Positions 37,434 through 57,569 of a DNA stretch of 64,000 bases are shown one piece after another. Both the position numbers and the translations under genes were made by a program. The notes beneath the pieces are model-generated. The model was not told where the DNA came from and searched no databases. It saw nothing but the letters and a program-made list of their open reading frames with translations. The stretch's first letter is position 1. Each line of letters opens with the position of its first letter. The stretch is from Solimonas sp. K1W22B-7 (GTDB lineage Bacteria; Pseudomonadota; Gammaproteobacteria; Nevskiales; Nevskiaceae), in NCBI RefSeq assembly GCF_003428335.1, contig NZ_CP031704.1, positions 5,096,071 to 5,160,070 on the forward strand, written 5' to 3'.

Positions 37434-39698
37434 ATGTCTCATGCTCATATCCTCGGCTTTCCCCGCATCGGTGCCCGGCGCGAGCTGAAGTCCGCCCTAG
37501 AGTCCCACTGGAAGGGCCCGCTCGACGAGACCGGCCTGCGCACGGTCGGCCGCGAACTGCGCGGCCGCCACTGGGCGCTGCAGCGGGCGGCCGGGCTGGA
37601 CTGCGTCACGGTGGGCGATTTCGCCTTCTACGATCATCTGCACAACGCCACCGCCCTGTTCTCGGCCGCACCGGCCCGCTTCGGCCTGGAGGGCCAGGTC
37701 AGCCTGGCGGGTTACTTCGCGATGGCGCGCGGCACGCCGGAGCAGCCGGCGCTGGCGATGAAGAAGTGGTTCGACACCAACTACCACTACCTGGTCCCGG
37801 AAGTGGATGCCGGCACGCGCTTTCGCCTCAACCGCGACTGGCTGCTGCCGGAGCTGCAGGGGGCGCTGGCGGCGGGACACCGCGCCAAGGTCGTGCTGCC
37901 CGGCCCGCTGACCTGGCTGTGGCTGGCCAGCGCGCCGGCCGGCTTCGACAAGCTGTCGCTGCTGCCGGCGCTGCAGTCGGTCTACGCCGAACTGGCGGCG
38001 GAGCTGCGCCAGCCGGGCGTGGACTGGCTGCAGCTGGACGAGCCGATCCTGTCGCTGGACCTGCCGGCCGAGTGGCTGGCGGCCTTCCCGCAGGCCTATG
38101 CGGCGATCACCGCAGCCGCGCCGCCGGTATTGCTGGCGACCTACTTCGGCAGCGTCGCCGAGCATGCGGCGCTGCTGCAGTCATTGCCCATCGCCGGCCT
38201 GCACCTGGACCTGGTGCGCGCGCCGCTGCAGCTCGGCGCCTTCCTGCCGGACTGGCCGCAGGACAAGGCGCTGTCGCTGGGCGTGATCGACGGCCGCAAC
38301 CTCTGGCGCACGGACCTGGCGAAGGTGCTGGCGCTGCTGCACCCGGCGAAGGCGCTGCTCGGCGAGCGGCTGTGGATCGCCCCGTCCTGCTCGCTGCTGC
38401 ACGTGCCCACGGATATCGCGCTGGAAGAGAAGCTGGACCCGACGCTGAAGAGCTGGATGGCCTTCGCGGTGCAGAAGCTGGATGAACTCTCGCTGCTGAA
38501 GCGCGCGCTGGAACAGGGCGAGCCGGCGGTGTGGCGCGAGCTGCAGGCGGCGGCCCAGGCCATCGAGAGCCGCCGCAGCGCGCCCAGCACGCGGCGCGAG
38601 GCGGTGCGGGCGCGCGTGGCGGCGCTGACGCAGGCGGATACCGAGCGGGGCGCGCCGTTCGCGCAGCGCATTGCCGCGCAGCAGGCGGTGCTGCAGCTGC
38701 CGAAGCTGCCGACGACGACGATCGGCTCCTTTCCGCAGACTGCCGAGATCCGCGCGGCGCGGGCCGGCTACAAGGCTGGCCGGCTCGGCGAGGACGAGTA
38801 CGTCGCGGCGATGCAGGCCGAGATCAGGCTCGCGGTGGAGAAGCAGGAACAACTGGGCCTCGACGTGCTGGTGCACGGCGAGGCCGAGCGCAACGACATG
38901 GTGGAGTACTTCGGCGAACAGCTCGAGGGCTATACCTTCACGCAGAATGGCTGGGTGCAGAGCTACGGCTCGCGCTGCGTGAAGCCGCCGGTGATCCATG
39001 GCGACGTGTCGCGGCCGAAGGCGATGACGGTGGCGTGGTCCACCTATGCACAGAGCCTGACGGACAAGCCGATGAAGGGCATGCTCAGCGGCCCGCTGAC
39101 GATGCTGTTCTGGAGCTTCGTGCGCGACGACCTGCCGAAACGCGAGGTGGCGCTGCAGCTGGCGCTGGCACTGCGCGACGAGGTGGTGGACCTGGAGACG
39201 GCCGGCATCAAGCTGATCCAGATCGACGAGCCGACGATCCGCGAAGGGCTGCCGCTGAAGCAGGCGGACTGGCCGGCCTATCTCGACTGGGCGGTGCAGG
39301 CCTTCCGCATCACCGCGGCCGGCGTGCGCAACCAGACGCAGATCCACACGCACATGTGCTACTCGGAGTTCAACGACATCCTGCCGGCCATCGCCGCGCT
39401 GGACGCCGACGTGATCACGATCGAAACCTCGCGGGCGCGCATGAAGCTGCTCGACGGCTTCGCCGAGTTCAACTACCCGAACGACATCGGGCCGGGGCTC
39501 TACGACATCCACTCGCCGCGCGTGCCGGCGCAGGAAGAGATGCAGGAGCTGCTGCAGCGCGCGCTGAAGGTGGTGCCGGCGGAGCGGCTATGGGTGAACC
39601 CGGACTGCGGGCTGAAGACGCGCGGCTGGCCGGAGACGGAAGCGGCGCTGAAGATCATGGTGGCGACGGCCCGCGTCGCGCGGGCCGCGCTGAACTGA
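37434..39698 (+). CDS. metE: Cobalamin-independent methionine synthase
   Basis: 754 residues, the family norm. Transfers methyl from 5-methyltetrahydropteroyltri-glutamate to homocysteine. N-terminal barrel starts [20 protein letters not shown]-terminal barrel holds the zinc ligands His640 and Cys642 ([11 protein letters not shown]) and Cys725 (NPDCGLKTR), and the substrate segment [18 protein letters not shown]. It is controlled by MetR and has no B12 riboswitch. The stop codon overlaps a 57-residue ORF (TGATG), the first link of the operon with glyA. Confidence 0.97.
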
Positions 39699-47785: not shown

Positions 47786-49129
47786 ATGTCGCTGATCCAG
47801 TCCACCGCCCGGAATCTCTCCCTGCTTGCCTCCATGGGGCAGACGGCCGGCCAGCAGAACATGATGCAGCTGATCCAGCTGCGCTGGCTGGCGGTGTTCG
47901 GACAGGTGCTGACGATCGCCCTGACCACTTCCCTGTTCGGCATCCAGCTGCCGCTGCAGGCGATGTTCGGCATCGTCGGCGGCCTGATCCTGCTGAACCT
48001 GTTCAACCTGGTGCGCCCGCGCCGCAACGGCGAGGTGCGCAACAGCGATCTCATGGCCGGCCTGCTGCTCGACGTGGCCGCGCTCACCGCGCTGCTCTAC
48101 TTCAGCGGCGGCGCCACCAACCCCTTCGTGTTCCTCTACCTGCTGCAGGTCGCGCTCGGCGCGGTCCTGCTGACGCCCCGCTCGACCTGGGTGCTGGTGG
48201 GCGTCACCACCCTGTGCTTCGCCGGCCTGACGCGCTACTACCTGCCGCTGCCGCTGCACTCTGCCGATCCGGGCCGGCTGTTCGAGCTGCACGTCATCGG
48301 CATGCTGGTCTGCTTCGTGCTCGACGTGGCGCTGCTGGTGGTGTTCATGACGCGCATCAACAGCAACCTGCGGCGCCGCGACGCGCGCCTGGCCGACCTG
48401 CGCCAGCAGGCGGCGGAAGAGGACCATATCGTGCGCATGGGCCTGCTGGCCTCGGGCGCGGCGCATGAGCTGGGCACGCCGCTGGCAACGCTGTCGGTGA
48501 TCCTGGGTGACTGGAAGCGCATGCCGCAGTTCCGCGACGACGCCGATCTGCTGCAGGAGATCGTCGACATGGAGGGCGAGGTGCGGCGCTGCAAGGCGAT
48601 CGTCACCGGCATCCTGATGTCGGCCGGCGAGGCCCGCGGCGGCGCGCTGGCACTGACCACGGCGGCGAGCTTCCTCGACGAACTGGTCGGCGAGTGGTGC
48701 AATACCCGCCCGACCGTGGCGCTGGACTACCGCATCGACGACAGCGGCGGCAGCCGCTGGATGAAGGTGCCGATCGTGTCGGACTCCGCACTCAAGCAGA
48801 TCATCTGCAACGTGCTGGACAATGCCGCCGATGCCTCGCCCGCCTGGGTCGGCCTCACTGCCGCCTGCCCCGACGGCCAGCTGAGCCTGTCGGTGCAGGA
48901 CCGCGGCCCGGGTTTTGCGGCGGAAATGCTGGCGCAGGTCGGCAAGCCCTATCAGTCCAGCAAGGGACGCCCCGGCGGCGGCCTGGGCCTGTTCCTGGTG
49001 GTGAACGTGCTGCGCAAGCTCGGCGGCGGCGTCAGTGCCGAGAACCTGCCGGAAGGCGGCGCGCGGGTGACCCTGCGCCTGCCGCTGTCGGCGCTGTCGA
49101 TCGGAGGCGAGGATGAGCGAAGCACCTGA
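47786..49129 (+). CDS. regB: Redox-sensing histidine kinase RegB/PrrB
   Basis: 447 residues, six membrane helices in the first 190. Quinone-site motif SGGATNPFVFLYLLQVA (about 107-123) is characteristic of RegB. H-box SGAAHELGTPLATL has phospho-His227. A conserved redox cysteine, Cys269 (VRRCKAIV), matches Cys265 of Rhodobacter RegB. ATPase motifs are NVLDNAADASP (N) and GGGLGLFLVV (G2). It likely senses the ubiquinone pool or oxygen and phosphorylates RegA. Sited right after the cyo-surf1 operon. Confidence 0.93.
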   Translation: MSLIQSTARNLSLLASMGQTAGQQNMMQLIQLRWLAVFGQVLTIALTTSLFGIQLPLQAMFGIVGGLILLNLFNLVRPRRNGEVRNSDLMAGLLLDVAALTALLYFSGGATNPFVFLYLLQVALGAVLLTPRSTWVLVGVTTLCFAGLTRYYLPLPLHSADPGRLFELHVIGMLVCFVLDVALLVVFMTRINSNLRRRDARLADLRQQAAEEDHIVRMGLLASGAAHELGTPLATLSVILGDWKRMPQFRDDADLLQEIVDMEGEVRRCKAIVTGILMSAGEARGGALALTTAASFLDELVGEWCNTRPTVALDYRIDDSGGSRWMKVPIVSDSALKQIICNVLDNAADASPAWVGLTAACPDGQLSLSVQDRGPGFAAEMLAQVGKPYQSSKGRPGGGLGLFLVVNVLRKLGGGVSAENLPEGGARVTLRLPLSALSIGGEDERST

Positions 49130-49655
49130 GCGTCTGCTGCTGATCGTCGAGGACGACGAGGCCTTCGCGCGCACGCTGAAGCGCTCCTTCGAGCGCCGCG
49201 GCTACCGCGTGCTGCATGCCGCCGATGCCGGCCAGGCGCGCACGCTGCTGCAGGCGGAAACGCCGAGCCACGCGGTGGTCGATCTCAAGCTGGGCTCGGA
49301 GTCGGGCCTGACGGTGGTGCAGCTGCTGCACCAGCAGCAGCCGGAGATGATGATCGTGGTACTGACCGGCTTCGCCAGCATCGCCACCGCGGTGGAGGCG
49401 ATCAAGCTCGGCGCCTGCAACTACCTGGTCAAGCCTTCCAACACCGACGACATCGAGGCCGCCTTCAGCAACGAGCCGGCGGAGCCGCAGCTGCCGGCAA
49501 CCGCGACCCGTCCGACCTCGATCAAGACGCTGGAGATGGAGCGCATCCACGAGGTGCTGGCGGAGACGGGGTTCAATATCTCCGAAACTGCGCGGCGGCT
49601 GGGGATGCATCGGCGGACTCTTGCCCGGAAGCTGGCCAAGCGTTGGGTTCCTTGA
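49113..49655 (+). CDS. regA: RegA/PrrA/ActR response regulator
   Basis: 180 residues, overlapping regB by 17 bp. Receiver phosphoacceptor is Asp57 (VVDLKLGSESG), with the double acidic pocket IVEDDEAF and Lys in YLVKPS. The C-terminal Fis-type HTH NISETARRLGMHRRTLARKL is nearly identical to the invariant RegA DNA-binding helix. The linker contains four prolines in the typical hinge. It is a global activator of oxygen- and redox-responsive genes; the neighbouring cyo genes are an obvious candidate target. Confidence 0.95.
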   Translation: MSEAPERLLLIVEDDEAFARTLKRSFERRGYRVLHAADAGQARTLLQAETPSHAVVDLKLGSESGLTVVQLLHQQQPEMMIVVLTGFASIATAVEAIKLGACNYLVKPSNTDDIEAAFSNEPAEPQLPATATRPTSIKTLEMERIHEVLAETGFNISETARRLGMHRRTLARKLAKRWVP

Positions 49656-50087: not shown

Positions 50088-50975
50088 TTACTCCGCCTTG
50101 CGATAGAGATTGACGATGCTGGAGAAGTCCTGCGCGCCGGCGTCCTGCGAGTGCAGCGCATAGAGATTGCGCGCCAGCTCGCCCAGCGGCACCGCGCTGC
50201 CGCTGGCGATGGACGCCTCGGTGGCCAGGCCCAGGTCCTTGAGCATCAGGGCGCTGCCAAAGCCGCCGCTATAGCCGCGCGAAGCCGGCACGTTGTCCAT
50301 CACGCCCGGCCAGGGGTTGTACAGCTCCAGCGACCAGTTGCGGCCGGAACTCTTCACCATGATCTCGGACAGCACCTTGGGATCGAGGCCGTTGGCGACA
50401 CCGAGCGCCAGCGCCTCGGCGGTGCCGGCCATGTGGATGGCCAGCAGCATGTTGTTGGCGATCTTGGCCACCTGGCCCGCGCCGCTGCCACCGGCGTGGA
50501 AGATGTTCTTGCCCATGGCGGACAGGTAGGGACGGGCGCGCTCGAGCGCCGCCGTGTCGCCGCCGACGATGAAGGTCAGGGTGCCGGCCGCGGCGCCGGC
50601 GGTGCCGCCCGACACCGGCGCGTCGATGAAGGCCAGGCCGCGCGCCTGCGCGGCTTCGGCGACCTTGCGCGAGGAGACCGGCGCGATGGTGGAGCAGTCG
50701 ATCACCAGGGTGCCGGGCGCGATCTGCGCGACCAGGCCTTCGGTTCCCAGGTACAGGGACTCGACGTGCTTGCTGGCGGGCAGCATCGAGATCACGACCT
50801 CGGCGGCGGCCACGGCATTTGCGGGGCTGGTGGCAACCGTTGCGCCGGCGGCGCGCGCGGCTTCCAGCGCGGCGGGGGCGAGGTCGTATACGGCCAGGGC
50901 GTGGCCGGCCTTGATCAGGTTCTGGGCCATCGGGCCGCCCATGTTGCCGAGGCCGATGAATGCGATTTGAGTCAT
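50088..50975 (-). CDS. mmsB: 3-hydroxyisobutyrate dehydrogenase
   Basis: 295 residues from ATG 50975 (AGAGGAA upstream). Beta-hydroxyacid dehydrogenase with NAD motif FIGLGNMGGPMAQNLIKAG, substrate motif DAPVSGGTAGAAAGTLTF, and catalytic Lys in GSGAGQVAKIANNMLL. Oxidises 3-hydroxyisobutyrate to methylmalonate semialdehyde, the substrate of MmsA encoded upstream. It is separated from the preceding operon genes by a 137-bp repeat cluster. Position and family agree with valine degradation. Confidence 0.93.
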   Translation of the reverse strand: MTQIAFIGLGNMGGPMAQNLIKAGHALAVYDLAPAALEAARAAGATVATSPANAVAAAEVVISMLPASKHVESLYLGTEGLVAQIAPGTLVIDCSTIAPVSSRKVAEAAQARGLAFIDAPVSGGTAGAAAGTLTFIVGGDTAALERARPYLSAMGKNIFHAGGSGAGQVAKIANNMLLAIHMAGTAEALALGVANGLDPKVLSEIMVKSSGRNWSLELYNPWPGVMDNVPASRGYSGGFGSALMLKDLGLATEASIASGSAVPLGELARNLYALHSQDAGAQDFSSIVNLYRKAE

Positions 50976-50995
50976 GAATTCCTCTTGTCTTGTCT

Positions 50996-51103
50996 CCTCT
51001 CTCCCGCTTGCGGGAGAGAGGTCGGGAGAGAGGGTTTCTGTAAATCTTGCAGGAGTTACAGAAACCCTCTCCCTTGATCCCTCTCCCGCAAGCGGGAGAG
51101 GGA
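50996..51103. repeat. Composite palindromic element inside the valine operon
   Basis: CCTCTCTCCCGC-tt-GCGGGAGAGAGG, a central inverted repeat GGGTTTCTGTAA...TTACAGAAACCC (51032-51067), then CCCTCTCCCGC-aa-GCGGGAGAGGG. The architecture matches 24351-24527, so the two are copies of one composite element. It separates the hydrolase and mmsB genes. Confidence 0.78.
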
Positions 51104-51112
51104 AACGCACGT

Positions 51113-52252
51113 CTATGCCACTCCCACCGACGCCAAACTATCCGTCCAAGGCGCCCGGAAATGCTCCGCCACCCACTCCGGCGTCACCTCCGCCAGCGTC
51201 GGCGGCGTCCACTTCGGCGCGTTGTCCTTGTCGATCAGCAGGGCGCGCACGCCTTCGGCGAAGTCCGGGTGGGCGCAGCATTGCAGCGCCACCACCAACT
51301 CCATGCGGAACACCTCGGCAAGGCTCATCGTGGAGGCACGCTCGCGCAGGGCCCAGACCAGGGCCGCCGTGGTCGGCGAGCCAGCGGCGAGCGTCGCGGC
51401 AGCGCGCTTGAGCCAGGGATTGTCGCCGGCATAGCCGGTGATGGCGGCGTAGACCTCGCGCAGGCTGGCGCCGGCGGTGAGGGCTTCGATGGTCTGCGCG
51501 TGCTGCTGCAATGGCGAAGCCGGCAACGAAGCCTGCGCGGCCTCGGCGAAGCCGGCGAGCAGTTGGCTCAGCAGCGCACGATTGGCCCCGGCGGAATCGC
51601 CCCAGTCGGCAGCGGCCAGCTGATCGAAGATCGCCTCCCGATCCGCGGCGCGCACAAAGTAATCCGCCAGGCCCGCCACCCGCAGGTCATGAGCATTGAT
51701 CGAGGCGCCGGTCAGCGCCAGGAACAGGCCCATGCGGCCCGGCATGTTGCGCAGGAACCAGCTGCCGCCGACGTCGGGGAACAGGCCGATGCTGATCTCG
51801 GGCATGGCGACGCGCGAAGTCTCGGTGACGACGCGATGGCTGGCGCCGGCCATGAGGCCGAGGCCGCCGCCCATGACGATGCCGCTGCCCCAGACCAGCA
51901 GCGGCTTGGGATAGCGGTGGATGCGGTAGTCGAGGCTGTATTCCTCGTCGAAGAACGCCATGTTCGCAGCGTTCGGCGGCGGGCCCTGGTGATCCAGGAT
52001 CGCGCGGTGGAGGCTGCGCACGTCGCCACCGGCGCAGAAGGCCTTCTCGCCGGCACCGTGCAGGACCACGCAGGCGATGGCGGGATCGGCCGACCAGCGC
52101 TGCAGCTGCGGATCGAGCAGGCGGATCATCGGCAGGCTCAGGGCGTTGAGCGACTTCTCTGCATTGAGCTGGGCGTAGCCGATGCGCTTGCCGTTGGCCG
52201 CGGTGACTTCGCGGAACAGCACCGGGCTGTCGAGGGGAGCGGTGTCAGCCAT
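51113..52252 (-). CDS. 3-hydroxyisobutyryl-CoA hydrolase
   Basis: 379 residues; longer than enoyl-CoA hydratases, as expected for HIBCH. Crotonase fold with oxyanion motifs GAGEKAFCAGGDVRSLH and GIVMGGGLGLMAGASHRVV, and the catalytic acidic residue in MPEISIGLFPDVGGSWFL. Releases CoA from 3-hydroxyisobutyryl-CoA in valine degradation, making 3-hydroxyisobutyrate for MmsB. Its ATG overlaps the preceding enoyl-CoA hydratase stop by 8 bp. Confidence 0.92.
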   Translation of the reverse strand: MADTAPLDSPVLFREVTAANGKRIGYAQLNAEKSLNALSLPMIRLLDPQLQRWSADPAIACVVLHGAGEKAFCAGGDVRSLHRAILDHQGPPPNAANMAFFDEEYSLDYRIHRYPKPLLVWGSGIVMGGGLGLMAGASHRVVTETSRVAMPEISIGLFPDVGGSWFLRNMPGRMGLFLALTGASINAHDLRVAGLADYFVRAADREAIFDQLAAADWGDSAGANRALLSQLLAGFAEAAQASLPASPLQQHAQTIEALTAGASLREVYAAITGYAGDNPWLKRAAATLAAGSPTTAALVWALRERASTMSLAEVFRMELVVALQCCAHPDFAEGVRALLIDKDNAPKWTPPTLAEVTPEWVAEHFRAPWTDSLASVGVA

Positions 52253-53024
52253 TGGTCCACTCCGGCTTGCGCTTCTGCAGGAAGGCATTGACGCCCTCCT
52301 TCTGGTCCTGGGTGTCGAACAGGTCGACGAAGCGCTCGCGCTCCACCGGCAGGATCTGCCGCAGCGGGTTGCCGCGCGCGCCCTGGATCAGGGTCTTGCA
52401 GATGGCGACGCTGGTCGGGCTCTGCCTGGCGACCTGCCCGGCGAGCGTCAGTGCAGCCTCCAGCGCGCCGCCGCTGGGCACGACCTGCTCGACCAGGCCG
52501 ATGCGCAGGGCGGTGGCCGCGTCGATGCGCTCGCCGCAGAGGATCAGGCGCTTGGCCCAGCCCTCGCCCACCAGCCAGGGCAGGTTCTGCGTGCCACCGG
52601 CACAGGGCAGCAGGCCGACCGTGGCTTCCGGCAGCGCCATCTGCGCATGCTCCTCGGCGATGCGCAGGTCGCAGGCCAATGCCGCTTCCAGGCCGCCGCC
52701 CATGGCGTAGCCGTTGATCGCGGCGATGCTGACGCCGCGGAAGTCCGACAACGCTTCGAAGGCCTCGCCGAAGCGGCGCGCCAGCTCGCGCGCCCGCGCC
52801 TTGTCGCCGTCGGCGAACAGCTTGAGGTCGGCGCCGGCGGAGAAGAACTTGGCGCCCTCGCCGGTGATGACCAGGGCGTAGATCTCGCGGTCGGCGTTCA
52901 GGTCGGCGACCAGGCGCTTCAGGTCGGCGAGGCTTTCCGCCGTCCAGGTGTGGGCCGGCGGATTGCTCAGGAACAGCACGGCGGTGTGATCGCGCTTTTC
53001 CAGCTTCAGGTTGGTGTAGCTCAT
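52245..53024 (-). CDS. Enoyl-CoA hydratase (methacrylyl-CoA hydratase role likely)
   Basis: 259 residues. Crotonase family: GEGAKFFSAGADLKLF and INGYAMGGGLEAALACDLRI form the oxyanion hole. Of the two usual catalytic glutamates, ALPEATVGLLP carries the second. Hydrates methacrylyl-CoA to 3-hydroxyisobutyryl-CoA in this operon setting. Start overlaps the acyl-CoA dehydrogenase stop as ATGA. Confidence 0.92.
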   Translation of the reverse strand: MSYTNLKLEKRDHTAVLFLSNPPAHTWTAESLADLKRLVADLNADREIYALVITGEGAKFFSAGADLKLFADGDKARARELARRFGEAFEALSDFRGVSIAAINGYAMGGGLEAALACDLRIAEEHAQMALPEATVGLLPCAGGTQNLPWLVGEGWAKRLILCGERIDAATALRIGLVEQVVPSGGALEAALTLAGQVARQSPTSVAICKTLIQGARGNPLRQILPVERERFVDLFDTQDQKEGVNAFLQKRKPEWTNG

Positions 53025-54181
53025 CTCAACTCCTCGGTTGCGCCCTCGCGCAGGATGGCGCGGGCAACAATCACCCGCATGATTTCGTTGGTCCCTTCCA
53101 GGATCTGGTGTACGCGGCTGTCGCGGACGTGCCGCTCCAGCGGCAGTTCGCGCGAGTAGCCGTAGCCGCCATGCAGCTGCAGGGCCTCGTTGGAGACCTG
53201 GAAGCCGACGTCGGTGGCGTAGCGCTTGGCCATGGCGCAGTAGGTGGTGGCGTCGGGGCTGCCGGTGTCGAGCTTCCAGGCGGCCAGCCGCACCATCTGC
53301 CGCGCGGCGACCAGGTCCGTGACCATGTCCGCCAGGCGGAACTGCAGGGCCTGGAACTGCGACAGCTCGCGGCCGAACTGCCGGCGGACGGTGAGGTGTG
53401 CCTGCGCCCGGTCGAGCGCCGCCTGCGCCGTGCCGACGGAGCAGGTGGCGATGTTGATGCGCCCGCCGTCGAGGCCCTTCATCGCGATGGTGAAGCCGTC
53501 ACCCTCTTCGCCGAGGCGGTAGTCCTCGGGCACTTCGACCTCGTCGAAGCTGATGGTGCGGGTGGGCTGGCTGTTCCAGCCCATCTTGTGCTCCTTCTTG
53601 CCATAGACGATGCCCGGCGCGTCTGCCGGCACGGCGAAGGCGCTGATGCCCTTGGCGCCATCGTTGCTCGTGCGCGCCATCACCACCAGCAGGTCGGTGC
53701 CGCCGGCGCCGGAGATGAAGATCTTGCTGCCGCTGATGCGGTAGCGGTCGCCATGGCGCACGGCGCGGGTCTTGAGCGAGGCGGCGTCGGAGCCGGCGCC
53801 GGGCTCGGTCAGGCAGTAGCTGCCCAGGGCCTGGCCGCTGGCCAGGCGCGGCGCCCAGTCCGACAGCACCCGCCCCTGGCCCCAGGTCGCGACCACCCAG
53901 GTCACCATGTTGTGGATGGTGATGTAGGCGGTGGTGCTGGTGCAGCCGGCAGCCAGCTCCTCGAAGATCACCGCGGCGTCGAGGCGCTTCAGCCCCAGGC
54001 CGCCCGCGGATTCCGGCGTATAGACCCCGCAGAACCCCAGCTCCCCGGCCTTGGCGATGGTCTCGCGCGGGAACTCGGAATCGGCGTCCCACTGCGCGGC
54101 ATTGGGCGCAAACTCGTGGCGCGCGAAATCGCGCGCCGCCGCCTGCAGCGACAGCTGCACATCATTGAGTGCGAACTCCAT
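53021..54181 (-). CDS. Acyl-CoA dehydrogenase, isobutyryl-CoA dehydrogenase type
   Basis: 386 residues. Three-domain acyl-CoA dehydrogenase; SYCLTEPGAGSDAASLKT is the flavin-binding ACADS motif, and QLHGGYGYSRELPLERHVRD the C-terminal ACADS signature. Oxidises isobutyryl-CoA to methacrylyl-CoA with electrons going to electron transfer flavoprotein. Overlaps the hydratase start and lies 11 bp after mmsA. Confidence 0.93.
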   Translation of the reverse strand: MEFALNDVQLSLQAAARDFARHEFAPNAAQWDADSEFPRETIAKAGELGFCGVYTPESAGGLGLKRLDAAVIFEELAAGCTSTTAYITIHNMVTWVVATWGQGRVLSDWAPRLASGQALGSYCLTEPGAGSDAASLKTRAVRHGDRYRISGSKIFISGAGGTDLLVVMARTSNDGAKGISAFAVPADAPGIVYGKKEHKMGWNSQPTRTISFDEVEVPEDYRLGEEGDGFTIAMKGLDGGRINIATCSVGTAQAALDRAQAHLTVRRQFGRELSQFQALQFRLADMVTDLVAARQMVRLAAWKLDTGSPDATTYCAMAKRYATDVGFQVSNEALQLHGGYGYSRELPLERHVRDSRVHQILEGTNEIMRVIVARAILREGATEELR

Positions 54182-54192
54182 GTGTCATGGCC

Positions 54193-55716
54193 TTACTTCA
54201 GGCTGATCGTGGTGTTCACGCCGACCGACAGCGTGCTGTCGTCGAACCAGCGCTGCGTGACGGTCTTGGTCTGGGTGTAGAACAGGATGACCTGCTTGCC
54301 GTAGGGGCCGAGGTCGCCGAGCTTGGAGCCGCGCGAGCCGGTGAAGGAGAACAGCGGCACCGGCACCGGGATCGGCACGTTGATGCCGACCTGGCCGACG
54401 TCGATGTCTTCCTGGAACTTGCGCGCGGCGGCGCCGGACTGCGTGAACAGCGCCACGCCGTTGCCGTTGGGGTTGCTGTTGATCAGCTCGATGGCCTGGT
54501 CCAGCGTGTCCACCGAGACGATCACCTGCACCGGCCCGAAGATTTCCTGGTCGTAGATCGACATGCCGGGTTTGGCACCCGAGAAGATCGTGGGGCCGAC
54601 GAAGTTGCCCTGCTCGTAGCCGGGCACCGAGGGATTGCGGCCGTCCAGTTCCAGCTTCGCGCCATCGGCGAGGCCGCGTGCGATCAGGCCGTCGACGCGC
54701 TCGCGCGCCGCGCAGGACACCACGGGACCGACATCGGTGCCGGGCTCGTGGCCGGCATTGACCTTCAGCGTCTTCGCCTTGGCGACGATGTCCGGAATCC
54801 ACTGGTTGGCCTCGCCCACCAGCACCGTCACCGAGGCGGCCATGCAGCGCTGGCCTGCGGCGCCGAAGGCGGCGCCGGTGAGATTGTTCAGCGCCTGCTC
54901 CCTGTTGGCGTCGGGCAGCACCACGGCGTGGTTCTTGGCGCCCATCATGCACTGCGCGCGCTTGCCGGCCAGCGTGGCGCGGTTGTAGACGTGCGTGCCG
55001 ACCTTGGTCGAGCCGACGAAGGACACCGCCCTGATGTCCGGGTGATCGCAGAGGCCGTTGACGACGTCCGGGCCACCGTGGACAACGTTGAGCACGCCCC
55101 TGGGAACGCCGGCTTCCAGCGCCAGCTCGACCAGGCGCATGGTCACCATCGGGTCCTGCTCGGACGGCTTCAGCACGAAGGTGTTGCCGGTGGCGATGGC
55201 CATGGGGAACATCCACAGCGGGATCATCGCCGGGAAGTTGAAGGGCGTGATGCCGGCGCAGACGCCCAGCGGCTGCAGGATGGTGTAGGTATCGACACCG
55301 CCGGCGACATTGGTCGCCAGCTCGCCCATCTGCAGCGTGCCGATGTTGGCGGCATGCTCCACCACCTCGAGGCCGCGGAACACGTCGCCCTCGGCGTCCG
55401 GCAGGGTCTTGCCCTGCTCGGCGGTGAGGATCGCCGCCAGCTCCTTCATGTTCTCGCGGATCAGCTGCTGGTACTTGAGGAAGATGCGGGCGCGCGCACC
55501 GATCGGCGTCTTGCGCCAGGTCTTGAAGGCTTCCTTGGCGGAAGCCACCGCGGCATCGAGTTCCTCCGGCGTGGCGAAGGGCACGCGCGCCAGGACTTCC
55601 TGGGTGGCGGGGTTGATGACGTCGCGCCAGTCGCGCGACTTCGACTCGATGAATTCACCGTTGATCAGCAACTTGATGCTGGGGATCGCCGCGTTGGGCT
55701 TGAGGACAGCTGACAT
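54193..55716 (-). CDS. mmsA: Methylmalonate-semialdehyde dehydrogenase (CoA-acylating)
   Basis: 507 residues. Aldehyde dehydrogenase of the MmsA class: [20 protein letters not shown] and [17 protein letters not shown], the latter carrying the catalytic cysteine. Converts methylmalonate semialdehyde and CoA to propionyl-CoA. The ATG is at 55716 with a GGAG seven bases upstream; the in-frame upstream reading is not protein-like. First gene of a five-gene valine operon, and its leader carries a cobalamin riboswitch. Propionyl-CoA needs a B12-dependent mutase further on, which may explain this control. Confidence 0.95.
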
Positions 55717-55895
55717 GAATATGCTCCGCGAGTCTTCGCGGTCTGCCCGGGGAAGGCGCGCACAACCGCCCGGCCGGACGAGGCTCAGGTCAGGGCACGC
55801 ACGCTTCGTGTTCCGTCTGCAAACCGCCATGCCGTCACGCCCACCGCGAACGGGATTCTTGAACGCGCGCTCCGACCGTTGTCGAAACGTGCGCA
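55717..55895 (-). other. Leader segment between riboswitch and mmsA
   Basis: 179 bp with no convincing gene. The frame of mmsA stays open through it, but the sequence lacks protein character. No U-tract terminator is evident, so control is more likely translational. Confidence 0.5.
55726..55741 (-). promoter_or_regulatory. Small hairpin touching the mmsA Shine-Dalgarno
   Basis: On the minus strand CCGCGA-agac-TCGCGG is a perfect 6-bp stem whose 3' arm includes two bases of the mmsA GGAG. It could hide the ribosome site when the riboswitch binds ligand. Confidence 0.5.
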
Positions 55896-56080
55896 TGCAG
55901 GCCGGTCTCCGGACTTGCAAGGATTTCTGCGCGGCCTTCCCGATGTCGACATCAGTGGCGTAGAGGCGCAGCGACGCTTGCTTACCGTTGCGGGGGCAGT
56001 TGCGGCATGACCGGGCTTGTCGCCCAGGGCACCGCATTCCCGTTTCACCCTGGATCCGGATAAGGACCAGGGCACCTGCA
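55896..56080 (-). promoter_or_regulatory. Cobalamin riboswitch
   Basis: Read on the minus strand, P1 pairs TGCAGG (56080-56075) with CCTGCA (55901-55896). Conserved blocks occur in order: GGGAATGCGGTGC (56041-56029), CCCGCAACGGTAAGC (55994-55980), CCACTG (55958-55953) and the B12 box AAGTCCGGAGACCGGCCTGC (55916-55897). These are the core of the adenosylcobalamin/cobalamin riboswitch (Rfam RF00174 type). It lies 180 nt before mmsA, so it likely reduces or alters expression of the valine operon when B12 is plentiful. Confidence 0.96.
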
Positions 56081-56283
56081 TGGGGCGGATTCTAGTGCGG
56101 GATGTGGCAGGGAGCAGTGCCGGAATCCGCCGAAATGATTGAGCGTTTTTGCCATGTTTCGATTCCCGGCAGAGGATCAATGGCCGCGCACACCGGGTAT
56201 TCGCTCCGAAAATCCGACTGCGCCCTTAGTCGCAGGGTCGACCTGCGCGCAGCCACTTTTTACCATGCCGGAGCGTTGCGCCC
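56081..56283. other. Intergenic segment before the riboswitch
   Basis: 203 bp between the riboswitch and the end of the hydrolase gene. It should include the mmsA promoter. I see no repeat, RNA or protein-coding signal. Confidence 0.4.
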
Positions 56284-57489
56284 TCAGGTCTCGGACAGGA
56301 CCGTCTGCAGCAGCGCGCGGTAGTAGGCCACGCGCGGGAAGCGGTTGATGCCGAAGTTGAAGGTCCGGTAGCTCACGCCCCAGTGATGCGTGCGCACGGC
56401 GCCGAGATGCAGATTGTTCTGCGCCGGCACCTGCGGCGCCGGCGGCAGCAGGTTGTCGGGCAGCGCCACCTGGCCGTCGTTGTAGACCGTGATCGGGTCG
56501 GTAACCAGTGCCTGCCGGTGCATGGCCCAGTCGTCGAGGTTGAGCTGCCACCAGCGGCACCGGTAGTCGGCCAGCGGCATCACCGCGGCGGCGGTGTAGT
56601 AGCGCAGCTGCGGCGGCAGGCGGGGCGCGTAGTCGCGGGCGCGGGCCTGGCGCACCGGGTGCCCCAGCGCGCCGACGCCGTGGATCATGTCGTCGCAGAG
56701 CTGCGGCGTGCCCAGGCCCACCAGCTTGCCGAACCAGGGATGGCGCCGCGCGAAGGCCACCAGCTTGTCCATCGACACCAGCTGCGGCGACTCACCGATG
56801 CAGTCGTCCGCAAGATACGACCCGCCGATATCGCCGCAGAGACCGAGGAAGCCGCGCGTGACGCGCAGGATGAACTCGTCGGCGTAGGCGCCGCTGTTCA
56901 GCTCGGCCAGCAATTCCAGCGCCAGCGGGGCGCCGTAAGAATAGCCGACGAAGAACAGGCGGTAGCCCTCGCCCACCCAGCGCCGCAGGCTGGCGCTGCC
57001 CTGCAGCATGCGGAACATCGCCGGCACGATATGCGCGCTGGCGGCATTCGAGCGGGGGTAGCGCAGGTACACCAGCTTGAGCCCGTCGCCCGACTGGTAG
57101 AGCTGCTCGCGCGTCGCGCCCTCTGCCGGGTGCAGCATCAGCACCGTATGCGGCGAGCCCTTGCGCTGCACCTGCTCGTGCCAGGAGAAATTCTTCAGCG
57201 TCTCGTGGGTGAAGCCCGGCACCAGTACCAGCACGGTCTTTTCCCTGCGGAAGAAATGCTCGTCGATGCGCAGCGAAGGTTCGGGCAGCTCCGCCAGCAT
57301 CGCCTCCACTTCCGCCTCGCTGTAGGCCAGCCCGGAAAGATCGCGATCGCGGTCCGGGCCGAGGATGCGCAGGTCTTCGGGGCAGTAGGGCTTCCACATC
57401 CAGCGCGCGATCTGCGCCGGGCTGTGCCCTTTGGCACGCAGCTGCCACAGGAAATGATCTCGGAAACGCCGGGCGGCATCGTCGTTCAT
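56284..57489 (-). CDS. Alpha/beta hydrolase family protein
   Basis: 401 residues from ATG 57489. Nucleophile elbow GYSYG (FFVGYSYGAPLALELL) and a VLVLVPGFTHET oxyanion region define the fold; the catalytic His is likely in VRTHHWGVSYR near the C-terminus. The acid residue is not certain. The first 90 residues (helical, RRFRDHFLWQLRAKGHSPAQ) are not part of the core fold. No signal peptide. Divergent from a lipid-linked metal-dependent protein, which hints at a lipid ester substrate. Confidence 0.8.
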   Translation of the reverse strand: MNDDAARRFRDHFLWQLRAKGHSPAQIARWMWKPYCPEDLRILGPDRDRDLSGLAYSEAEVEAMLAELPEPSLRIDEHFFRREKTVLVLVPGFTHETLKNFSWHEQVQRKGSPHTVLMLHPAEGATREQLYQSGDGLKLVYLRYPRSNAASAHIVPAMFRMLQGSASLRRWVGEGYRLFFVGYSYGAPLALELLAELNSGAYADEFILRVTRGFLGLCGDIGGSYLADDCIGESPQLVSMDKLVAFARRHPWFGKLVGLGTPQLCDDMIHGVGALGHPVRQARARDYAPRLPPQLRYYTAAAVMPLADYRCRWWQLNLDDWAMHRQALVTDPITVYNDGQVALPDNLLPPAPQVPAQNNLHLGAVRTHHWGVSYRTFNFGINRFPRVAYYRALLQTVLSET

Positions 57490-57569
57490 CGCTCCCCCTC
57501 GGTCGACGTCGTTCTTGTAGTCCCCAGCCCCTACGGTAGCGCGAAGAACCGCCATTCATCGAGTGACGC

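Follow-up and report, generated by a model that had tools for sequence, protein, structure and literature searches.

A cobalamin riboswitch lies ahead of mmsA, the first gene of a valine-degradation operon, in Solimonas sp. K1W22B-7, and the same pairing recurs in 39 distinct genomes of four families, each case confirmed with Rfam. All 39 genomes encode a protein assigned by sequence to IcmF, the fused B12-dependent isobutyryl-CoA mutase. A riboswitch on mmsA was found only in genomes holding both IcmF and mmsA. We consider it probable that the riboswitch controls a B12-independent route from isobutyryl-CoA, with the mms operon off in the presence of B12 and on when B12 is short, and with IcmF as the B12-dependent counterpart.

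The riboswitch, its leader and the mms operon

The window analysed here is a stretch of 64,000 nucleotides from the Solimonas genome (G000; 5.37 Mb, one contig). At gathering thresholds, cmscan against Rfam gave a single match in it, a minus-strand cobalamin riboswitch (RF00174) that scores 114.8 bits (E 4.9e-28; gathering score 31.5 bits) and covers all 189 model positions (1-189). A preliminary description of this DNA had recognised a B12 riboswitch on this strand; the location it gave, 55896-56080, was right, though slightly short of the Rfam span (Table 1). The aptamer is placed 166 bases before mmsA, and family matches confirm the five-gene order that had been read behind it, with an acyl-CoA dehydrogenase, a hydratase, a hydrolase and mmsB following mmsA. 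No overlooked gene was seen between aptamer and mmsA (55717-55895). The mmsA reading frame is open upstream and runs through the aptamer, but because one base there is absent relative to congeners in alignment A3, this upstream part is no conserved extension of the coding sequence.

Table 1. Features of the mmsA leader, the mms operon and metE in the window.
Feature	Position	Strand	Basis and remarks
Cobalamin riboswitch aptamer (RF00174)	55883-56094	-	114.8 bits, full length; conserved before mmsA in 4/4 genus genomes examined and in G041
Candidate -10 hexamer TAGAAT	56089-56094	-	Directly upstream of P1; putative
L5 loop GCCCCCGC	55990-55997	-	Partner of L13; complementarity kept with compensatory change across loci
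P13 hairpin, expression platform	55832-55853	-	RNAalifold on five loci
L13 GCGGUGGGC	55839-55847	-	Within P13; complementary to L5
Possible anti-sequestor GCGGUUUGC	55819-55827	-	After P13; complementary to 55738-55746; RNAalifold helix, five loci; putative function
Small hairpin CCGCG-loop-CGCGG	55726-55741	-	Overlaps Shine-Dalgarno; read by eye from alignment A3
Shine-Dalgarno GGAG of mmsA	55724-55727	-	
mmsA, CoA-acylating methylmalonate-semialdehyde dehydrogenase	54193-55716	-	ATG at 55716; TIGR01722 724.3 bits, cut-off 448.5
Acyl-CoA dehydrogenase (probable isobutyryl-CoA dehydrogenase)	53021-54181	-	Pfam Acyl-CoA_dh domains
Enoyl-CoA hydratase	52245-53024	-	PRK09076 453 bits, cut-off 286
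3-hydroxyisobutyryl-CoA hydrolase (start codon unsure)	51113-52288	-	PRK05617 357.7 bits, cut-off 274; PF16113
mmsB, 3-hydroxyisobutyrate dehydrogenase	50088-51110	-	TIGR01692 422.1 bits, cut-off 291.6
metE	37434-39698	+	

Apart from the window, five riboswitch loci and six riboswitch-free loci among those inspected show the complete order mmsA-acd-ech-hibch-mmsB; shorter loci contain just the first genes of the operon. From its place in the operon, the acyl-CoA dehydrogenase has isobutyryl-CoA as its probable substrate. The true start of mmsB is probably later than annotated, since the family match starts at residue 51. Across the whole genome there are two RF00174 matches, of which the window copy is one. 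The other (L003:11352-11542, equal to G000:C1:294351-294541) lies ahead of a gene whose product has a TonB receptor plug domain, and is probably an ordinary riboswitch linked to B12 uptake. As had been noted before, metE of the same genome has no riboswitch: RF00174 is absent there. The ORF directly upstream of the mmsA riboswitch on the same strand, 56284-57555 (-), has no Pfam or NCBIfam match. Elsewhere in the window, at 47786-49655 (+), a kinase/regulator pair resembles the ActS/ActR (RegB/RegA) redox system, with scores below curated cut-offs.

The candidate promoter hexamer does not vary among the five riboswitch-mmsA loci known from the window's family; a consensus scan of the window's leader gave no complete sigma-70 site. 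Covariation is seen between the L5 and L13 loops. Among the 39 loci, L5 GCCCCCGC is paired with L13 GCGGNGGGC in 29 and L5 GCCTCCGC with L13 GCGGNAGGC in six, a compensatory change that supports an L5-L13 kissing loop, which passages of PMC9600662 describe as a known link from aptamer to expression platform. The complementary loops and P13 were found in the window and 34 further loci by a pattern in which the covarying position had to be G or A, and four loci (L226, L233, L234, L235) fall outside it. The RNA would bind adenosylcobalamin or another form of B12.

A terminator scan of the window's mmsA leader found no intrinsic terminator, which makes intrinsic termination unlikely in this genome; control is probably exerted at translation start. 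At the five riboswitch loci of the window's family, where median Shine-Dalgarno accessibility is 0.23, the segment after P13 can pair with the 5' side of the Shine-Dalgarno hairpin, and in the RNAalifold helix both partners of one of the nine pairs are plainly changed. For the gamma group (Xanthomonadaceae/Rhodanobacteraceae), median accessibility with the riboswitch is 0.04 (n=22) against 0.32 in riboswitch-free Xanthomonadaceae (n=28; p 1.2e-6). Undibacterium's family shows no extra occlusion with the riboswitch, 0.34 (n=12) against 0.41 (n=23; p 0.45). Riboswitch-free loci that lacked a start codon, motif or upstream sequence were left out of these two comparisons, 4 of 32 from the first and 15 of 38 from the second. 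Constrained folding with P13 forced on or off altered accessibility little, giving 0.09 against 0.12 over 22 loci (lower with P13 in 15) and 0.41 against 0.50 over five loci (lower with P13 in 4). In a duplex test, the gamma-group anti-sequestor was about equal to shuffles (mean z -0.64).

Association of the riboswitch with IcmF

A PF01642 search of the Solimonas genome finds a single ORF, which scores 1307.7 bits against PDB 4xc6 ("Isobutyryl-CoA mutase fused") and 262 bits against human methylmalonyl-CoA mutase. Its Pfam domains are B12-binding, MeaB and MM_CoA_mutase; the fused B12-binding, G-protein and mutase domains of IcmF are all present, together with an active-site Phe and Gln. We take this Phe and Gln to mark isobutyryl-CoA mutases, and Tyr and Arg at the same positions to mark methylmalonyl-CoA mutases. 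Judged by these features, the only PF01642 protein of the genome is IcmF, a B12-dependent isobutyryl-CoA mutase. The Phe/Gln signature is present in all 19 IcmF loci read; these represent 16 of the 39 genomes with a riboswitch on mmsA, plus three others. The PF01642 search gave no methylmalonyl-CoA mutase in the Solimonas genome, and a mutase other than IcmF was found in none of the 19 riboswitch-mmsA genomes checked. The methylcitrate genes prpB, prpC and acnD are clustered in the Solimonas genome and give propionyl-CoA a B12-free outlet. With this outlet and with IcmF as the sole mutase, the step at which B12 matters would be isobutyryl-CoA. IcmF and the mms operon would thus form two routes from isobutyryl-CoA, one of them requiring B12, the shared substrate being taken from pathway knowledge.

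The preliminary description had proposed a search for the same arrangement in related genomes, and it is indeed found there. In the window's family (58 genomes), riboswitch and mmsA adjoin on the same strand in all four genus genomes examined (G000, G048, G049, G050) and in a member of another genus (G041); 7 of the 29 genomes of this family with an mmsA-like match have only paralogues of 46-51% identity, which were not counted as mmsA. Five of the best 80 named mmsA loci listed carry the riboswitch: Stenotrophomonas nitritireducens (L117), Luteibacter sp. OK325 (L129) and three from Undibacterium (L143, L162, L163). Of the 117 genomes sampled from Luteibacter's family, ten possess an mmsA orthologue; each of these carries the riboswitch and also IcmF, which was searched in those ten. 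A regular-expression prescreen, which failed to pick up L162 and L163 and matched L115 and L156 falsely, was replaced by Rfam and by our own covariance model, built from 31 of the 39 collected cores, seven of those 31 being mmsA switches.

Several loci have unusual features of their own. The mmsA riboswitches of Undibacterium pigrum and U. umbellatum (L162:7414-7700 and L163:7410-7696) are unusually long, at 287 bases, and contain a large insert ahead of the L5 segment. A relative carries back-to-back cobalamin riboswitches on opposite strands (G001:C1, 421996-422513), one at 421996-422265 on the minus strand and one at 422301-422513 on the plus strand. At the edge of a Stenotrophomonas locus (L138:54-283, minus strand), a cobalamin riboswitch lies about 8 kb from mmsA and faces away from it. 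Grouping with this locus in the mmsA tree is a Stenotrophomonas-like mmsA from a record named Bacillus subtilis SK7B5 (L116), which looks like contamination of that assembly.

Among the mmsA genomes scanned in the four families, the riboswitch is on mmsA in 38 of 59 with IcmF and in 0 of 73 without it (the 39th riboswitch-mmsA genome, L163, lies outside this sum). The association is one-sided: as in metE-like control, the switch is absent where the B12-dependent partner is absent. For the best 80 named genomes listed, IcmF is encoded in five of five with the riboswitch and in one of 75 others; this one, L094, has an mmsA identical to that of G019 from the window's family. No riboswitch was found on mmsA in the 74 IcmF-less genomes of this named set, some of which are also among the 73.

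The rule that mmsA carries a riboswitch if and only if the genome encodes IcmF was fixed before testing in two families. In S. nitritireducens's family (247 genomes, 45 with mmsA), the riboswitch is present in 12 of 13 genomes with IcmF and 0 of 32 without (Fisher p 4.5e-10; this and the following p values for association and avoidance ignore relatedness, and genome incompleteness adds noise). In U. crateris's family (245 genomes, 70 with mmsA), the figures are 11 of 17 and 0 of 38 (Fisher p 1.0e-7), from a scan of 38 of the 53 IcmF-less mmsA genomes that left out 15 and second mmsA copies. The state was already known for nine genomes, G058, G060 and G087 with the riboswitch and G072, G078, G082, G083, G061 and G089 without; leaving these aside gives 11/12 against 0/28 and 9/15 against 0/36 for the two families, respectively. 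The negative half of the rule had no exception in either family, and the positive half held in 23 of 30 cases. The seven misses, with IcmF and mmsA, were also negative with Rfam; a weak match in L274 (13.6 bits, E 0.96) was counted as riboswitch-free. In the window's family, the riboswitch is on mmsA in 5 of 19 genomes with IcmF and 0 of 3 without; IcmF was assigned there by PF01642, with the IcmF of G026 in pieces on two contigs and the IcmF-less G010 76% complete. Of the genomes that hold both IcmF and mmsA, 14 of 19 in the window's family, 6 of 17 in Undibacterium's and 1 of 13 in S. nitritireducens's have no riboswitch on mmsA. IcmF looks necessary but not sufficient for the riboswitch.

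IcmF and mmsA also tend to avoid one another. The 247 genomes of S. nitritireducens's family comprise 13 with both, 193 with IcmF only, 32 with mmsA only and 9 with neither (p 8.6e-22); the 245 of U. crateris's family comprise 17, 129, 53 and 46, in the same order (p 1.9e-12). Two alternative routes for one substrate would give this pattern.

Proposed mechanism and alternative explanations

We propose that when B12 is available as adenosylcobalamin, IcmF would convert isobutyryl-CoA to n-butyryl-CoA, which would yield acetyl-CoA via beta-oxidation. In the cofactor-bound riboswitch, the L5-L13 contact would lock P13, and mmsA and the downstream operon would be turned down, in this genome probably at translation start. 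With B12 scarce, IcmF would be idle, the riboswitch empty and the mms operon expressed, and isobutyryl-CoA would pass through propionyl-CoA into the B12-independent methylcitrate cycle. That the mms operon can replace the function of IcmF is suggested by pathway knowledge. The preliminary description had found the sign of regulation puzzling; with IcmF acting on isobutyryl-CoA as the B12-dependent counterpart, this puzzle goes away. A second methylmalonate-semialdehyde dehydrogenase gene in the Solimonas genome (G000:C1:4318284-4319753, L086; 50% identity) has no riboswitch in the whole-genome RF00174 search, which we count against the proposal. This paralogue adjoins a gene resembling that for the pyruvate dehydrogenase E1 alpha subunit, with a score below the family cut-off.

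The original rationale for the pairing was a different one, in which valine use is tied to B12 because its product, propionyl-CoA, needs the B12-dependent methylmalonyl-CoA mutase. Valine degradation through MmsA does yield propionyl-CoA, and Streptomyces, for which the pairing is also reported, has a methylmalonyl-CoA mutase. For the genomes studied here the idea is largely refuted, and we regard it as highly improbable: IcmF is the only mutase found in Solimonas and in the 19 riboswitch-mmsA genomes checked, methylcitrate genes are present in Solimonas, and 26 of the best 80 named genomes listed have only a non-IcmF mutase-domain protein (36-39% identity; methylmalonyl-CoA mutase or a relative), with mmsA riboswitch-free in all 26. 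Alternatively, the five enzymes could oxidise propionyl-CoA via acrylyl-CoA and 3-hydroxypropionate to acetyl-CoA at low B12, as in the propionate shunt of C. elegans. The enzyme set is the same, an OFF switch is predicted in this case too, and among NCBIfam families the acyl-CoA dehydrogenase matches acryloyl-CoA reductase best, at 358 bits, below the cut-off of 640. This idea was set back by IcmF as the only mutase and by the methylcitrate cluster, through which propionyl-CoA is already handled without B12; the riboswitch, moreover, tracks IcmF and not other mutases, and a propionate shunt seems quite unlikely. Another alternative would be an ON switch, with B12 raising mms operon expression. 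Forced-P13 folding changed accessibility little, and the OFF direction that we infer draws on the class of riboswitch, on the Streptomyces griseus case and on pathway logic. In passages of PMC9600662, P. megaterium metE is repressed through a cobalamin riboswitch, and the premature termination at the S. griseus mmsA riboswitch is read by its authors as repression (passages of PMC8914203). The IcmF association and the avoidance between IcmF and mmsA would make no obvious sense with an ON switch, which we hold to be very unlikely.

Two further explanations concern the origin of the pairing. The suggestion that the switch is displaced or decaying, having lost the target it once had, could appeal to the second copy in the genome, before the TonB-plug gene, but it is refuted by conservation and keeps almost no probability: the switch occupies the identical place before mmsA in four genus genomes and in 39 genomes of four families overall, with compensatory change between L5 and L13. 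The association with IcmF could instead stem from shared ancestry or from B12 use in general, without functional coupling. Independent contrasts are few. A tree of 200 mmsA proteins, from which duplicates (L177, L047, L094, L117, L143, L230, L121, L151, L139, L153, L115, L164) and the second mmsA copy of G016 (L063) were left out, offers four whose branches are well supported; in 2 to 4 of these, depending on pairing, IcmF and the riboswitch go together, and in none do they go opposite ways, which is not significant. In a 111-row mmsA tree without the duplicate records L177 and L047, the two go together in three to four contrasts. The gamma riboswitches, in addition, are one cluster. Against this, in close contrasts the two traits are absent jointly (G043 next to G041; among riboswitch carriers, the Luteibacter MAG L096), the prewritten rule has no exception in its negative half, and 55 of 58 genomes in the window's family contain RF00174, so that they do not differ merely by sensing B12. 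We therefore judge ancestry or general B12 use an unlikely source of the association.

A riboswitch tree of 62 cores, from a short alignment without L163 and with 9 of 57 inner branches well supported, unites the gamma mms switches with support 87. The mms switches of Undibacterium's family and of the window's family group together, along with three other Nevskiales switches (L005, L006, L023), and the remaining Nevskiales switches fall between those two groups. This topology hints at two or more captures of a riboswitch by mmsA. In a wider form of our proposal, to which we give slightly less than an even chance, B12 riboswitches choose between two carbon routes from isobutyryl-CoA, a pathway-level counterpart of metE/metH. 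The pairing would have been captured independently at least twice in proteobacteria, in Xanthomonadaceae/Rhodanobacteraceae and in Undibacterium relatives/Nevskiales. Streptomyces would perhaps be a further case, and every capture would have taken place where one genome contains both the mms operon and an isobutyryl-CoA mutase.

The pairing places a catabolic branch firmly in the proteobacterial B12-riboswitch regulon. IcmF gains a testable physiological role, in that the riboswitch would mark the mms operon as its B12-free substitute. If the proposal is true, carbon from valine and isobutyrate should reach acetyl-CoA when B12 is present and propionyl-CoA when it is absent, and with such routing B12 supply by neighbours would reroute branched-chain metabolism.

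Relation to known systems

A new member of the B12 regulon was one of the two readings that the preliminary description offered for the mms operon. The operon does lie outside the usual B12 genes, but the pairing itself is already in print: passages of PMC8914203 describe a predicted cobalamin riboswitch before an mmsA-type gene of Streptomyces griseus, with valine-degradation genes downstream. Premature termination was seen there in one growth phase and not in another, and the authors leave the reason for an mmsA riboswitch open. In its main text, the words mutase and isobutyryl are absent and no link to isobutyryl-CoA mutase is made. S. griseus and the present case are alike in riboswitch class, in the mmsA-type gene with valine-degradation genes behind it and in the reading as repression; S. 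griseus differs as an actinomycete and in its premature transcription termination, and we liken the two by description, not by sequence. Isobutyryl-CoA mutase is known from Streptomyces (S. cinnamonensis; the title of a work cited in PMC6759758), so our proposal would fit, and would explain, the S. griseus case. The riboswitch-mmsA pairing is not new; the IcmF rule seems to be. Passages of PMC9600662, PMC2667541, PMC3766115, PMC11494915, PMC8914203, PMC7857532 and PMC6759758 gave no link between a cobalamin riboswitch and isobutyryl-CoA mutase.

The RNA shares the aptamer, conserved core, L5-L13 kissing loop and P13 with cobalamin riboswitches of the btuB type (RF00174), whose targets are B12 uptake or synthesis, whereas the target here is a catabolic operon. 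According to passages of PMC3766115, cobalamin regulons in 197 genomes fall into four classes, namely B12 synthesis, B12 transport, cobalt transport and isozymes of enzymes that depend on B12. IcmF (PDB 4xc6), with the same domains and, where read, the same active-site Phe and Gln, is known as an enzyme; its coupling to an mms operon by a riboswitch was not found in the literature searched. The B12-independent propionate shunt of C. elegans uses the same enzyme types and is raised at low B12. Its substrate is propionyl-CoA and its control is by transcription factor, whereas the riboswitch here follows IcmF. The logic resembles that of metE, in which a B12-independent alternative stands behind the switch and the B12-dependent counterpart, MetH, is encoded elsewhere in the genome. 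MetE is an isozyme of MetH, whereas the mms operon is a five-gene route to another product, propionyl-CoA rather than butyryl-CoA, with a predicted OFF direction. We regard the system as a riboswitch of the ordinary kind that extends the logic of metE to a branch of a pathway, one unexplained instance of which had already been published.
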